DNA of 35,965 bases from assembly GCA_022767445.1 (NCBI GenBank), contig JALENJ010000026.1, positions 1-35,965 of the forward strand. The letters are read 5' to 3'. Origin of the DNA: Erysipelotrichaceae bacterium. GTDB taxonomy: Bacteria; Bacillota_I; Bacilli_A; Erysipelotrichales; Erysipelotrichaceae. This document shows, piece after piece, positions 5,708 to 11,216 of the stretch. The notes beneath the pieces were generated by a model. The model had not been told where the DNA came from. It ran no database searches and saw only the letters and a program-made list of their open reading frames with translations. A program made the position numbers and the translations under genes. The stretch's first letter is position 1. Each line of letters begins with the position of its first letter.

Positions 5708-5760
5708 TTGACAAAGTATGGGTATGTATTATCATATACTTGAACGGTTGTTCAAGTATG
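5708..5760 (+). promoter_or_regulatory. Promoter with ArsR/SmtB-like palindromic operator for the metal ATPase
   Basis: TTGACA (5708-5713), a 16-bp spacer and TATCAT (5730-5735) form a promoter. Directly over the expected start point lies a perfect inverted repeat, ATACTTGAAC (5736-5745), four bases, then GTTCAAGTAT (5750-5759). The TGAAC-n4-GTTCA core resembles operators of metal-sensing ArsR/SmtB repressors such as CzrA and CadC. Binding here would block transcription. No such repressor gene is in the window. Confidence 0.7.
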
Positions 5761-5771
5761 AGGTATGTTAT

Positions 5772-8069
5772 ATGGAATATAAATATCAGGTAGTAGAGAT
5801 TGATTGTGCGGATTGTGCTGCTGAGCTTGCTGATGAAATCCGTAAGATAGATGGGGTACAGAGTGCTGACATTCATTTTATGCAGGAAAAGTTGATCTTT
5901 TCCTGTGATGAATCATTACATGATGAGATAGAAAAGAAGGTATTTGATATCATTCATAATGATGAGCCAGATGCCAAGATTACACCAATCATGGATGAGG
6001 AAAGTCATCCCTATAAGTTTAAGATCAAGAATATTGACTGTGCAGATTGTGCAAATGAATTGGCTGAAAAGGCAATGCATATACAGGGTGTTGAAAGAGC
6101 AGAGTCTGATTTTATCCATGCGGTAATGACGGTTTGGTTTCCTACTAAGGAGTATGCACGCATTGAAAAAGAACTTGCGGATATGATTGCCAAAGAGGAG
6201 CCTGATGTTGAGTTTTCTCGCTATTATACTGAACATACACAACAACAAGAGGAGAATCATGAACAACAGACAATGATCATTCGTTTAATTGTTGGTGCGT
6301 TGTTATTTGGAGTGGCTTTGTTTACACATGACCTCTTCAGTAATATCGTCGCAATTATATCCTTTGTGGTACTTGGATATGATGTTGTGCTAAAAGCGTT
6401 TGGTAATCTTAGAAGAGGTCATCTATTAGATGAACATTTCTTGATGACAATCGCAACTTTTGCGGCATTGTATTTAGGTGACTTTAAAGAAGCGACTGCT
6501 GTTATGTTGTTTTATCAGGTGGGAGAGTTCTTCCAGGACTTAGCGGTTGATCGATCTCGTAAGTCTATCGCTAGTCTAATGGATATCCGTCCAGATTTTG
6601 CTAGCGTACAAAGTGGAGATACATTCATTCAAGTTGATCCAAGTCAGGTCAATGTAGGTGATATTATCCAGGTAAAACCTGGTGAAAGAATTCCGTTGGA
6701 TGGTGTCATTGTTGCTGGTAGTTCTTCGTTAGATACTGCATCATTAACAGGTGAGTCCAATCTAAAGGATGTGGATGTTGGTGATGAGGTTATCAGTGGT
6801 GTTGTAAGTACAAATGGTGTTATTCAGATTCAAGTAACAAAGGAATATGGTGATTCTACTGTGGCTAAGATATTGAATCTGATTGAAAGTGATAATGATT
6901 CTAAGTCATCACAAGAGAAGTTTATTACGAAGTTCTCTCATTACTACACACCCATCGTAGTTGGACTAGCAATTCTTGTGGCGATTGTTGTAGGAATAGT
7001 GAGTAGAGATATCAATGAAGGTATTTATCGTGCATGCACGTTCTTAGTTATTTCTTGTCCATGTGCTTTGGTAATATCAATTCCTCTGTCTTTCTTTGCG
7101 GGTATTGGTGGTTTATCCGCAAACGGTATTATGTTAAAGGGTTCTAATTATGTCGAACAAATTGCAAAGCTAGATACGATTGTATTTGATAAGACAGGTA
7201 CTTTAACAACAGGTAAGTTTGCGGTAAGCAAAGTACTAGGAAGTAATGATGATAATACTGTATTACGTATTGCGGCATATGCGGAGAGTTATTCCAATCA
7301 CCCAATTGCTAGGGCAATACAAAGTGCTTATCAAGAAGAGATTGATCCATCACGAATCCAAGATTTAAAAGAAATTGCTGGAAGAGGTATAGTATTAAAG
7401 CTTGATGGTAGAGATGTACTTGTTGGTAATTACAAGTTAATGCAAGAAAACAATATTGCATGCATGGAATATAATGAAGCAGGAACATATGTATATGTAG
7501 CACAGGACGGAAACTTCTTAGGATGTATTTTGTTGAAGGATACAATAAAAAATGGTGCCGAAGAAGCGGTTCATCAGTTATCTAAGAATCATGCTTGCAT
7601 GATGGTGTCTGGCGATGCACAAGCAATCTGTGATGAGGTTGGTGCAGAGCTACATATGAAGGATGTGTATGGTGAATGCTTGCCAGAGGATAAGATTGCT
7701 TATGTAAATAAACAAAAGAGCCAGGGCAGTGTTGCCTTTGTGGGTGATGGTGTTAATGATGTACCTGTTATGCGTAGTGCGGATATTGGTTTTGCGATGG
7801 GTATGCAGGGTAGTGATGCGGCGATTGAAGCTGCGGATGTTGTCATTACAGATGATAATCTGGATAAGATCTCTGTAACGATTCAACATGCAAAACGTAT
7901 TATTCGTATCGCCAATGAAAATATTGTATTTGCGATAGCTATCAAAGTATTAGCGCTCATTCTAGGAGCGCTAGGTATTGCGAATATGTGGATGGCAATC
8001 TTTGCGGATACTGGTGTGGCTATCTTATGTGTATTAAACGCAGTTCGACTATTAAAAGTAAGAGCTTAG
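5772..8069 (+). CDS. P1B-type heavy-metal ATPase (Zn/Cd/Pb exporter, CadA/ZntA-like)
   Basis: 765 aa. There are two tandem N-terminal heavy-metal-associated domains, each with a CADC metal motif (first C12/C15, second near residue 95). Membrane helices follow, then the TGES actuator motif, the intramembrane CPC motif (C429-P-C431), the phosphorylation site DKTGT (D473), the HP motif SNHP, and the hinge GDGVND. CPC with these features fits export of soft divalent cations, more likely Zn2+/Cd2+/Pb2+ than copper, though selectivity is not certain. The start at 5772 was chosen because GAGGT lies 7 bases upstream and because upstream in-frame ATGs fall inside the promoter and operator. Expression is probably metal-induced. 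Confidence 0.92.
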   Translation: MEYKYQVVEIDCADCAAELADEIRKIDGVQSADIHFMQEKLIFSCDESLHDEIEKKVFDIIHNDEPDAKITPIMDEESHPYKFKIKNIDCADCANELAEKAMHIQGVERAESDFIHAVMTVWFPTKEYARIEKELADMIAKEEPDVEFSRYYTEHTQQQEENHEQQTMIIRLIVGALLFGVALFTHDLFSNIVAIISFVVLGYDVVLKAFGNLRRGHLLDEHFLMTIATFAALYLGDFKEATAVMLFYQVGEFFQDLAVDRSRKSIASLMDIRPDFASVQSGDTFIQVDPSQVNVGDIIQVKPGERIPLDGVIVAGSSSLDTASLTGESNLKDVDVGDEVISGVVSTNGVIQIQVTKEYGDSTVAKILNLIESDNDSKSSQEKFITKFSHYYTPIVVGLAILVAIVVGIVSRDINEGIYRACTFLVISCPCALVISIPLSFFAGIGGLSANGIMLKGSNYVEQIAKLDTIVFDKTGTLTTGKFAVSKVLGSNDDNTVLRIAAYAESYSNHPIARAIQSAYQEEIDPSRIQDLKEIAGRGIVLKLDGRDVLVGNYKLMQENNIACMEYNEAGTYVYVAQDGNFLGCILLKDTIKNGAEEAVHQLSKNHACMMVSGDAQAICDEVGAELHMKDVYGECLPEDKIAYVNKQKSQGSVAFVGDGVNDVPVMRSADIGFAMGMQGSDAAIEAADVVITDDNLDKISVTIQHAKRIIRIANENIVFAIAIKVLALILGALGIANMWMAIFADTGVAILCVLNAVRLLKVRA

Positions 8070-8126
8070 TCTAGGAGTGGTATAGGCTGTTGTGATAGAA
8101 TAGGATCGATATAAGGAGGTAATCTT

Positions 8127-8219
8127 TTGCATATCTTAGATATCGTATCAATTTTAGTCCTGATACTTGTGATTGTACTTGCATTACTACGGTATCAGTG
8201 GAAAAGAGGAAAAAGATGA
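8127..8219 (+). CDS. 30-residue single-pass membrane peptide
   Basis: A short gene starting with TTG, 6 bases after a perfect AAGGAGGT SD (8113-8120). Its stop overlaps the ATG of the next gene as ATGA. The peptide is MHILDIVSILVLILVIVLAL followed by LRYQWKRGKR: one hydrophobic helix, then a strongly basic tail, expected to stay cytoplasmic. I know no family for it. The near-ideal SD, the four-base overlap and the membrane topology argue that it is translated, perhaps as a partner of the following membrane protein or as a coupling leader. It could instead be only a translational lead-in. Confidence 0.65.
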   Translation: MHILDIVSILVLILVIVLALLRYQWKRGKR

Positions 8220-8554
8220 GAAAGCTATTAACACAGTTATTTGTCAATGCTCTATCACTATGGGTCATTGACTTCGTGATGAGTTCTGTATATATTTCTA
8301 CACCGACAGCATTGGTTGGAACAGCATTAATCTTAGTGATATTAAATGCAGCATTAAAGCCTGTATTACAGTTGGTTTCATTACCAGTCACATTCCTAAC
8401 ATTGGGATTGTTCGCACTATTTATCAATGCATTTGTATTAGAGCTTGCCTTTAGTTTCGTATCAGGTTCCTATATTGCAGGTTTCTCTTCTGCAGTTTGG
8501 GCAAGTATTCTATTATCTATTGTCAATTCAGCACTGAATACAATCATGGATTAA
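8216..8554 (+). CDS. YvlD-like small membrane protein (phage holin 4 superfamily, PF04020)
   Basis: 112 aa, almost entirely hydrophobic with about four membrane helices. The central stretch with LNAALKPVLQLVSLPVTFLT and LGLFALFINA is characteristic of the PF04020 family (YvlD in Bacillus). Despite the holin name, most members are chromosomal and of unknown function; some are linked to envelope stress. The ATG at 8216 was preferred to a GTG at 8198 because it overlaps the stop of the preceding 30-residue ORF and has AGAGG just upstream. A terminator follows, so the two genes form a small unit, perhaps transcribed with the metal ATPase. Confidence 0.85.
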   Translation: MRKLLTQLFVNALSLWVIDFVMSSVYISTPTALVGTALILVILNAALKPVLQLVSLPVTFLTLGLFALFINAFVLELAFSFVSGSYIAGFSSAVWASILLSIVNSALNTIMD

Positions 8555-8581
8555 CATCGTATATTATGTACGATGTTTTTT
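8554..8581 (+). terminator. Intrinsic terminator after the YvlD-like gene
   Basis: ACATCGTA (8554-8561) pairs with TACGATGT (8569-8576) around a 7-base loop, followed by a run of T. Confidence 0.9.
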
Positions 8582-8588
8582 AAATATC

Positions 8589-8597
8589 TGCTATAAT
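8589..8597 (+). promoter_or_regulatory. Extended -10 promoter of the dtd operon
   Basis: TG-C-TATAAT is a textbook extended -10 and ends 10 bases before the dtd ATG. The expected start point is only 3-4 bases ahead of the ATG, and no SD is present. Confidence 0.65.
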
Positions 8598-8607
8598 TTT
8601 TATCGAT

Positions 8608-9057
8608 ATGAGAACGATTATACAAAGAGTTACGCATGCCAGTGTCACCATTGCGGGACAAGTTCATGGCAAGATTGAACAGGGATTTATGATCCTTGTA
8701 GGTATTAAGGATAGTGATGATGAAGCTGTTGTAAAGAAGATGGCTGAAAAGATCGCAAAGTTAAGAATTTTTGACGATGAAAACGGAAAGATGAATCTAT
8801 CACTCGACAAAGTTGGTGGAAAGATTCTATCGATTTCACAATTTACATTATTTGCGAATTGTAAGAAGGGAAATCGACCAAGCTTTGATGAAGCAGGTAA
8901 ACCCGAACATGCGAAAAAGATGTATCTATACTTCAATGAAGTACTTCGAGGTTTAGAAATTGAAGTACAAGAAGGCATCTTTGCGGCAGATATGAAGGTA
9001 GAACTGTTGAATGATGGACCAATCACAATCTTTTTAGACTCGGAGGATTTAAAATGA
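8608..9057 (+). CDS. dtd: D-aminoacyl-tRNA deacylase
   Basis: 149 aa, the normal family length. The N terminus MRTIIQRVTHASVTI, the core SQFTLFANCKKGNRPSF and the C-terminal NDGPITIFLDS (the NxGPxT active-site motif) identify DTD. It hydrolyses D-amino acids mischarged on tRNA and so keeps translation homochiral. The gene lacks an SD and starts right behind an extended -10 box. Its TGA overlaps the folD ATG as ATGA, so folD is translationally coupled. Confidence 0.97.
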   Translation: MRTIIQRVTHASVTIAGQVHGKIEQGFMILVGIKDSDDEAVVKKMAEKIAKLRIFDDENGKMNLSLDKVGGKILSISQFTLFANCKKGNRPSFDEAGKPEHAKKMYLYFNEVLRGLEIEVQEGIFAADMKVELLNDGPITIFLDSEDLK

Positions 9058-9911
9058 CAGAGATTATTTATGGAAGTGAACTATCATCCGAGCTAAAACA
9101 GAGTATGCGTGCAAAGGTGGATGCTTGGGTAAAAGAAGGAAAGAGAAAACCATGTTTAGCGGTTATTCTTGTTGGAGATAATCCTGCCTCAGTATCGTAT
9201 GTCCGCGGCAAGGAAAAAGCATGCCAGGCTGTAGGAATTGATACACAGACATTACGTTTGGATGCCAATATTTCTCAGGCGGATTTAGAGAGTGAAATTC
9301 GTAAGTGTTCGAATGATTCCAAGGTGGATGGTATCTTGATCCAATTGCCACTGCCAATTGGATTAGATGAGGATAGAGCGATCGCTTGTGTTGATCCAAA
9401 TAAGGATGTGGATGGACTTCATCCACTCAACTTTGGTAAGTTCTTTATGAATCAACCATCATTTATCCCATGTACACCACTGGGTATTATGGAATTATTA
9501 AAACGTATGCATTGTGATCCACAAGGTAAGCATGCGGTTGTAATCGGCAGATCCAAGCTTGTAGGTACACCTGTAGCTAGATTGTTGCAGAATGCGAATG
9601 CGACAGTAACGATATGCCATTCACATACTGCTAACTTGAAACAGATAGCCAATATGGCGGATATTCTAATTGTAGCGGTAGGTAAGGCAAAGATTATCGA
9701 TGCGTCCTATATCAAAGAAGGAGCGTATGTCATTGATGTCGGTGTCAACTCTGTCGATGGTCATCTTTGTGGGGATGTTGATTTTGACTCAGCATTAGGC
9801 AAAGCAGGTGCGATTACCCCTGTACCTAAGGGCGTTGGCCCAATGACGATATGCATGTTGTTGCAAAATACAATCACTGCATATGAAAGAGGTGAGTTAC
9901 ATGATAACTGA
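9054..9911 (+). CDS. folD: Bifunctional methylenetetrahydrofolate dehydrogenase / methenyltetrahydrofolate cyclohydrolase
   Basis: 285 aa, the full family length. Visible landmarks are the substrate-site Tyr/Lys region SYVRGKEKACQAVGI (about 42-56), QLPLP followed by DVDGLHPLN, the Rossmann stretch VVIGRSKLVGTPVARLL, and the C-terminal TPVPKGVGPMT. FolD interconverts 5,10-methylene-, 5,10-methenyl- and 10-formyl-THF in the cytosol for purine and fMet-tRNA synthesis. It overlaps dtd by four bases and DUF951 by eleven, so dtd-folD-DUF951-ychF reads as one operon. Confidence 0.97.
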   Translation: MTEIIYGSELSSELKQSMRAKVDAWVKEGKRKPCLAVILVGDNPASVSYVRGKEKACQAVGIDTQTLRLDANISQADLESEIRKCSNDSKVDGILIQLPLPIGLDEDRAIACVDPNKDVDGLHPLNFGKFFMNQPSFIPCTPLGIMELLKRMHCDPQGKHAVVIGRSKLVGTPVARLLQNANATVTICHSHTANLKQIANMADILIVAVGKAKIIDASYIKEGAYVIDVGVNSVDGHLCGDVDFDSALGKAGAITPVPKGVGPMTICMLLQNTITAYERGELHDN

Positions 9912-10110
9912 TTATGGTCTCAATGATATCGTAGAGATGAAAAAAGAACATCCATGTAGAAAATCCAAATATTGGAAAATCATTCGTATGGGTGCGGATA
10001 TTAAGATTAAGTGTCAGGGATGTGGTGCTGTTGTAATGTTTCCTCGACATGAGTTTGAGCGTAAACTAAAGAAAATGATTGAAAAAGCACCGGTTGAAAG
10101 TGAGGAATAG
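9901..10110 (+). CDS. DUF951 family protein
   Basis: 69 aa. Its sequence begins MITDYGLNDIVEMKKEHPC and carries CQGCG, the compact pattern of DUF951 (PF06107), a small Firmicutes family of unknown function. Cys residues at HPC and CQGC could bind zinc. The start at 9901 was preferred to an upstream ATG at 9883 because AGAGGTGA lies about 7 bases before it and the family normally begins here. It sits between folD and ychF, its common genomic position near ychF in Firmicutes as I recall. The function is not established. Confidence 0.88.
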   Translation: MITDYGLNDIVEMKKEHPCRKSKYWKIIRMGADIKIKCQGCGAVVMFPRHEFERKLKKMIEKAPVESEE

Positions 10111-10112
10111 AT

Positions 10113-11216
10113 ATGGCATTAACGGCAGGCATCGTTGGATTACCAAACGTTGGTAAATCTACATTATTTAATGCAATTACAAATAGTCAGGTACTAGCAG
10201 AGAACTATCCGTTTGCGACGATTAGTCCAAACGTTGGTGTGGTTGAAGTACCAGATAAGAGAATGGATGATTTCGTTGAGATCTTCCATCCAAAGAAGAC
10301 AATCTACACAACGTTTGAGTTCACGGATATCGCTGGTCTTGTAAAGGGTGCTTCCAAAGGTGAAGGCCTTGGAAACCAATTCTTAGCGAATATCCGCCAG
10401 ACAGATGCGATTGTACACGTTGTTAGATGTTTTGATGATAACAACATTGAACATGTAGAAGGTTCTGTAGATCCAATCAGAGATATTGAGGAAATCAACT
10501 TAGAATTATGCCTAAGTGATTTAGATACAATACAAAATCGTATCGCAAAGATTGCAAAAAAAGCACAGACATCTAAGGACAAAGATGCGATGGCTGAATA
10601 TACTGCATTACAGAAGTTTGAAAAGCTGCTAGAAGCAGGAACACCAGTACGCTTAAGTGACTTGGATGATACGGATAAAGAAATCCTAAAAAACTATGGA
10701 CTACTAACATCTAAGCCAGTCATCTATGTCGCAAATATGAGCGAAGATGAAGTTGGTAATCCGGAAGGCAATGCTTATTACCAAAAGGTAAAAGAGTTCG
10801 CAAGTAAAGAAGGTAGTGAGTGCATCGCTATTTGTGCACGCATGGAAGAAGAGCTAGCAGGCTTAGATAAAGAAGAGAAGATTGCATTCATGCAGGATTT
10901 GGGAATTGCCCAATCAGGTTTGGATAAGATCATCCGTGCTGCCTATCACTTGTTAGGATTGAGAACATTCTTTACTGTTGGTGAACCAGAATGCCGTGCA
11001 TGGACATTCCATGAAGGAATGAAGGCACCACAGTGTGCAGGTGTCATCCACACAGACTTCGAAAAGGGATTTATTCGGGCGGAGATTTACAGCTATGAGG
11101 ACTTGATGGAATATCGTACAGAACAATCCGTCAAGGAACATGGCAAGATGCGATTAGAAGGTAAAGAGTACTTGATGAAAGATGGCGATGTTGTCTTCTT
11201 TAGATTCAATGTATAA
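10113..11216 (+). CDS. ychF: Obg-like P-loop ATPase YchF
   Basis: 367 aa. The P-loop GLPNVGKSTLFNA is at about 8-20, with switch/G3 DIAGLVKGAS. The usual NKxD is replaced by NMSE (about 208), the change that makes YchF/OLA1 prefer ATP over GTP. The C-terminal TGS domain is intact (FFTVGEPECRAWT to FRFNV). YchF binds ribosomes and acts in translation and oxidative-stress responses. The start is 2 bases after the DUF951 stop with a GAGG SD, so it is the last gene of the dtd operon. Confidence 0.96.
   Translation: MALTAGIVGLPNVGKSTLFNAITNSQVLAENYPFATISPNVGVVEVPDKRMDDFVEIFHPKKTIYTTFEFTDIAGLVKGASKGEGLGNQFLANIRQTDAIVHVVRCFDDNNIEHVEGSVDPIRDIEEINLELCLSDLDTIQNRIAKIAKKAQTSKDKDAMAEYTALQKFEKLLEAGTPVRLSDLDDTDKEILKNYGLLTSKPVIYVANMSEDEVGNPEGNAYYQKVKEFASKEGSECIAICARMEEELAGLDKEEKIAFMQDLGIAQSGLDKIIRAAYHLLGLRTFFTVGEPECRAWTFHEGMKAPQCAGVIHTDFEKGFIRAEIYSYEDLMEYRTEQSVKEHGKMRLEGKEYLMKDGDVVFFRFNV

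Follow-up and report, generated by a model that had tools for sequence, protein, structure and literature searches.

Genes and signals at the locus

We have analyzed a small open reading frame in a 35,965 nt stretch of genomic DNA from an Erysipelotrichaceae bacterium (GenBank assembly GCA_022767445.1, contig JALENJ010000026.1), referred to here as the window. The ORF occupies positions 8127 to 8219 of the forward strand and comprises 30 codons, (M)HILDIVSILVLILVIVLALLRYQWKRGKR, from a TTG start at 8127 to a TGA stop at 8217-8219; it is predicted to encode a single-helix membrane peptide, in which a profile scan identified no Pfam family. The Shine-Dalgarno sequence AAGGAGGT (8113-8120, forward strand) precedes the TTG by 6 nt. 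The upstream neighbor encodes a heavy-metal P1B-type ATPase of the Zn/Cd type (5718-8069, forward strand; Pfam PF00122, PF00702 and PF00403; TIGR01512 at 471.6 bits, cut-off 313.5), whose stop codon lies 57 nt before the ORF. The downstream neighbor encodes a YvlD-like membrane protein of family PF04020 (8216-8554, forward strand; Pfam E value 1.3e-25), and its ATG at 8216 shares bases with the small-ORF TGA in an ATGA overlap. A preliminary description of this DNA had listed the TTG start, the Shine-Dalgarno sequence at 6 nt, the ATGA overlap and one hydrophobic helix, all of which are borne out by the sequence.

The basic tail of the peptide, also remarked upon earlier, is present, but its codons double as a Shine-Dalgarno-like AGAGGA of the PF04020 gene (8205-8210, forward strand), which lies inside the final codons of the small ORF (aaa aga gga aaa aga). 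The same AGAGGA arrangement is found in the last peptide codons of a related genome, G042, and the tail of the window peptide may therefore be partly a by-product, dictated by the overlap with this signal. We read the Shine-Dalgarno overlap in the window and G042 as a local overlap and not as the purpose of the peptide.

A possible promoter, an extended -10 element TGATAGAAT at 8093-8101 of the forward strand, lies 25 nt before the start codon and has no good -35; it was found by a dedicated -10 scan and was not reported by a two-hexamer promoter scan. A terminator-like stem with a T run follows the PF04020 gene (8553-8577, forward strand). Given these two signals, the peptide and the PF04020 gene may be a two-gene unit of their own, and the overlap of the small-ORF stop with the PF04020 start suggests that the two are translationally coupled in the window. 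Among the free-standing homologues treated below, the best -10 score was at least 5 upstream of 19 of the 23 scanned. Loci L147, L150, L152 and others have a perfect extended -10 (TGnTATAAT) 9-29 nt upstream of the peptide start, and at some loci of the scanned set a terminator-like stem lies between the ATPase and the peptide. Because of these -10-like sites and stems, co-transcription of the free peptides with the ATPase is doubtful.

The region 5718-11216 of the window and the related loci form a loose conserved cluster, whose members are lost one by one between species: the metal ATPase, a Peptidase_S11 enzyme or the peptide, PF04020, a flavodoxin-like gene, dtd, folD, DUF951 and a GTPase.

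Conservation of the small ORF

The genus sample consisted of 70 genomes of the window's GTDB genus (Erysipelotrichaceae/Solobacterium). An HMM built from 16 peptides was searched over 272 genomes of the family, and the loci were then inspected individually. Free-standing copies were identified in this way in 24 of the 70 genus genomes (G000, G042, G070, G021, G015, G078, G049, G017, G011, G072, G043, G066, G065, G014, G064, G074, G012, G077, G055, G004, G073, G061, G016 and G071), and the 272 family genomes yielded no convincing free form in any other genus. When 84,980 named species were scanned with the closer peptides, 13 loci emerged, every title of which is Erysipelotrichaceae or Solobacterium; a free copy (L236) is present in the record of an isolate, Erysipelotrichaceae bacterium NK3D112. 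The best small-frame hits in other genera (L168 and L169 of genus g19, about position 1500) lie antisense across the beginning of a gene and were set aside; they score E values of about 1e-6 with the peptide profile (5.6e-7 and 1.1e-6), which is a warning on short hydrophobic profiles.

The nearest relative with the three-gene layout of the window is G042, which has at the same place a 30-codon ORF with 60% identity to the window peptide. This ORF begins with ATG, and AAAGGAGGT and the ATGA overlap are likewise present. Values of pN/pS range from 0.04 to 0.51 across 11 homologue pairs. For eight disjoint pairs of free homologues the pooled pN/pS is 0.23 in frame, versus 1.08 and 2.92 off-frame, and the pair formed by the window and G042 gives 0.48 (Fisher test of synonymous versus non-synonymous changes, p = 0.01). 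The low in-frame values and the conserved copies indicate that the frame is very probably translated and under constraint. The two checks proposed in the preliminary description, a peptide in the same place in relatives and codon conservation, gave positive answers, and the small membrane protein that it postulated is confirmed by comparison as the product of a real gene. It had also named, as evidence to the contrary, relatives with frame-breaking changes that keep the Shine-Dalgarno sequence and the next gene. Four genomes (G002, G044, G040 and G048) have the ATPase and PF04020 genes 12-26 nt apart with no peptide between them; the peptide is absent there, not frame-broken, and these are therefore not relatives of that kind.

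Genomic position of the free peptides

An ATPase gene is present in all 24 genomes with a free peptide and is directly upstream of the peptide, on the same strand and with a gap of 18-168 nt, in 18 of them. In G017 the gap amounts to 1012 nt, in G071 the ATPase is followed by a MATE-type gene and then by the peptide, and in the other four genomes (G074, G077, G073 and G061) the peptide lies away from the ATPase. The MATE-type gene adjoins the peptide in G071 and in two of these four genomes; at the G071 (L059) and G073 (L160) loci the peptide follows this transporter-like gene, which was named by eye. A HAD-type gene is found downstream of the peptide in G073 and G061 (L161).

PF04020 is the next gene after the peptide in 5 of the 24 genomes, with an ATGA overlap in G000, G042, G070 and G021 and a gap of 56 nt in G015; it is located elsewhere in 7 and was not found by Pfam profile search in the remaining 12. 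The preliminary description had suggested that the peptide is a small subunit or a translational leader of the YvlD-like protein. In the window the overlap that it observed does suggest coupling; as a general rule the partnership is rejected on these counts. The overlap or close spacing in five genomes, the terminator that in the window comes only after PF04020, and the occurrence of PF04020 somewhere in 26 of the 34 genomes with the slot S11 enzyme described below speak for such a role. Against it stand the 12 free-peptide genomes without the gene, the 7 that carry it elsewhere and the four that retain ATPase and PF04020 without the peptide, and we consider it unlikely.

Similarity to the membrane anchor of Peptidase_S11 enzymes

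A Peptidase_S11 (D-Ala-D-Ala carboxypeptidase) gene follows this ATPase on the same strand in 19 other genus genomes, immediately in 16 and after 0.6-1.5 kb in three (G045, G047 and G051). The family assignment was verified with Pfam for four such proteins. Most of the ATPase-linked S11 enzymes have a C-terminal transmembrane helix, and it is this helix that the free peptides resemble. When the full-length S11 protein of G082 was compared by tblastn with the 24 free loci, 15 matched with E≤0.17 (best, 6e-6). The matches correspond to the last ~32 residues of the enzyme, and most begin at residue 398 or 399, the latter an internal Met, and at the start codon of the peptide. The rest of the enzyme had no convincing match in these 24 loci, and no remnant was detected beyond the tail. 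The window locus is not among the 15; having no pairwise tail match, it is linked to the anchor by the profile, by G042 and by its position.

At E≤0.01, an HMM made from 34 fused tails recovered 19 of the 23 free peptides searched, the window peptide with a value of 0.00096; the other four lay above the threshold. In the reciprocal search the free-peptide profile detected 18 of 35 tails at E≤0.01, the other 17 scoring above it, and reversed HMMs, used as a control, found no peptides or tails. E values of short hydrophobic profiles are nevertheless unreliable, as the antisense stretches L168 and L169 score better than most tails; for this reason the claim of homology is carried by position, motif and mutual exclusion together, and not by the E values alone. 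The outer end of the helix bears the motif [FLVI][DN]xx[CS] in all 23 free peptides tested, including that of the window, and in 30 of 35 tails; among 1359 background ORFs that contain a TM-like stretch, 31 have it (2.3%). A PP near the C-terminal end is found in 17 of 24 free peptides, 25 of 28 tails from the genus and none of 7 tails from other genera; the window peptide does not have it. No internal Shine-Dalgarno sequence was seen by eye before the tail in the fused S11 genes.

The window peptide thus matches the C-terminal anchor of the ATPase-linked S11 subfamily, whereas a catalytic Peptidase_S11 domain is excluded by its 30 residues, the lack of any Pfam family and the lack of an enzyme remnant. 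From these comparisons we regard it as highly probable that the peptide and the C-terminal anchor of a Peptidase_S11 (dacA-like) enzyme are homologous, the peptide being the free-standing form.

Mutual exclusion and history of the two forms

The slot S11 enzyme was identified in 32 of the 70 genus genomes (E≤1e-30), or in 34 when G041 and a fragment in G010 are counted. The slot enzyme and the free peptide occur together in none of the 70 genomes (Fisher test 2.8e-9 or 3.6e-10, phylogeny ignored); the ATPase tree provides four independent pairs on supported branches, a number at which no test reaches 0.05. Free-peptide genomes do have other S11 genes, and the 20 of these that were inspected end without this anchor helix.

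In the ATPase tree (57 rows) the free form as a single clade is rejected (p-AU 7e-7), and so is the fused form as a single clade within the genus (6e-5); in a quick ATPase tree, well-supported branches force at least 5 changes of the free label. Among 15 ATPase loci inspected in other genera, a tailed S11 gene lies behind the ATPase in five (G221, G222, G213, G211 and G285), the first four having been selected because the profile pointed there. In G285 this gene is followed by PF04020, and G094 has a tailed S11 with one gene between enzyme and ATPase.

The simplest history that we infer has the fused form first; it was then reduced to the anchor repeatedly and in some lineages lost, although ancient transfers or a renewed fusion are possible. 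The fused form would be ancestral in the ATPase cluster, and the enzyme part would have been lost more than once, so that a small gene remained, made up of a promoter, a start codon with its Shine-Dalgarno sequence and the final ~30 codons. Origin by reduction, an enzyme gene cut down to its membrane anchor, is probable. The stronger proposal, that several independent reductions of a cell-wall enzyme gene left nothing but the ~30-residue anchor and that selection maintains it, is more tentative. The opposite direction, in which an older free peptide was captured by the S11 enzyme through fusion, would account for a free form that is widespread in the genus and, like the fused form, polyphyletic on the ATPase tree; however, the fused form occupies the same place in other genera (g49, g54 and g71) and in the basal G082, no convincing free form appeared outside the genus in the 272 family genomes, and this order of events seems to us unlikely.

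An unrelated single-helix peptide, similar to the S11 anchor through shared hydrophobicity alone, is somewhat less likely again. Chance hydrophobic matches do reach E values of 1e-6, and the window peptide has neither the PP end nor a pairwise match; but its relatives align with the tail end to end from the start codon, the motif has a low background frequency, and the shared position, the exclusion and the reversed-profile controls all argue against coincidence. Least probable of all is a decaying relic of the enzyme gene, translated but functionless and open by chance or through coupling to PF04020: constraint is weaker in the window pair than in most others and the peptide is wholly absent from G002, G044, G040 and G048, yet the pooled in-frame constraint over eight pairs, the mostly good Shine-Dalgarno sequences and the retention in 24 of 70 genomes, including those where nothing is coupled, weigh against decay.

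Proposed function

Reduction of an enzyme to its anchor, with the anchor now living alone and kept by selection, is the reading that we favor as a whole, with moderate confidence. The enzyme domain should be located outside the cell, as is established for S11 enzymes, and the anchor helix should accordingly run from outside to inside. In the free peptides, positive charges are almost absent ahead of the helix but usually occur behind it, a pattern that fits the same direction, so their topology would be N-out, C-in, like that of the enzyme's anchor. The molecular function of the peptide is inferred. A helix that is kept alone has to act within the membrane; with less assurance than for the topology, we suggest that it binds another membrane protein side-on and serves as a small accessory subunit, most likely of the neighboring metal ATPase, working in the manner of PacL1 or KdpF (see below). 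This first guess reflects the frequency of the ATPase, which is the commonest neighbor, and its presence in every free-peptide genome. The identification of the ATPase as the partner is tentative, since the peptide genes have their own -10-like sites (19 of 23), some terminator-like stems stand behind the ATPase, and 4 of the 24 peptides lie away from it, two of these and that of G071 beside a MATE-type gene. The overlap with PF04020 in the window lineage would be a later, local arrangement giving translational coupling.

Comparison with known small proteins

The peptide family resembles PF00768 (Peptidase_S11, DacA-type) proteins in matching the anchor of the ATPase-linked subfamily, its final ~32 residues; unlike them it is without a catalytic domain and has its own start codon and Shine-Dalgarno sequence. 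Small single-helix proteins that attend a membrane transporter are known, CcoS/FixS with CcoI among them. Another example is AcrZ with AcrB (PMC7267776). FixS and other known families gave no match above noise when the 24 peptides were searched with Pfam and NCBIfam, the best sub-threshold scores being 0.011 for an LPxTATN sorting signal, 0.03 for MotB_plug and 0.034 for FeoB_associated.

Small membrane proteins encoded with P1B ATPases include PacL1/PacL (DUF1490) and DUF6110, and a P1B ATPase has been shown to depend on PacL1, which is 93 residues long and contains a Glu/Ala region as well as a metal-binding motif (PMC9374683). Like the free peptides, 18 of 24 of which are encoded directly behind the ATPase, PacL1 has one transmembrane helix and a gene beside a metal-exporting P1B ATPase; its metal-binding motif, however, is missing from the window peptide, and the 24 peptides had no match to DUF1490 or DUF6110 at E≤0.1. 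KdpF (PMC3618439), a peptide of 30 residues that belongs to the potassium P-type ATPase KdpABC, is similar in size, single helix and P-type ATPase neighbor, but the ATPase beside the window peptide is of the different IB class, and none of the 24 peptides matched a Kdp family in Pfam. The portions of the literature on small membrane and anchor-derived proteins covered by our search contain no description of such a peptide.

Single-helix small proteins are often found and their origin is rarely traceable; here, in a family of ~30 residues that gene callers likely miss, the presumed source is visible in relatives. If the anchor does work alone, carboxypeptidases may have in their C-terminal anchors interaction modules rather than simple tethers, and comparison of the fused and free forms could point to the partner. 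The anchor of a "simple" tethered enzyme would then have a function of its own, separable from catalysis, and that function would probably be the binding of a membrane transporter encoded beside it.
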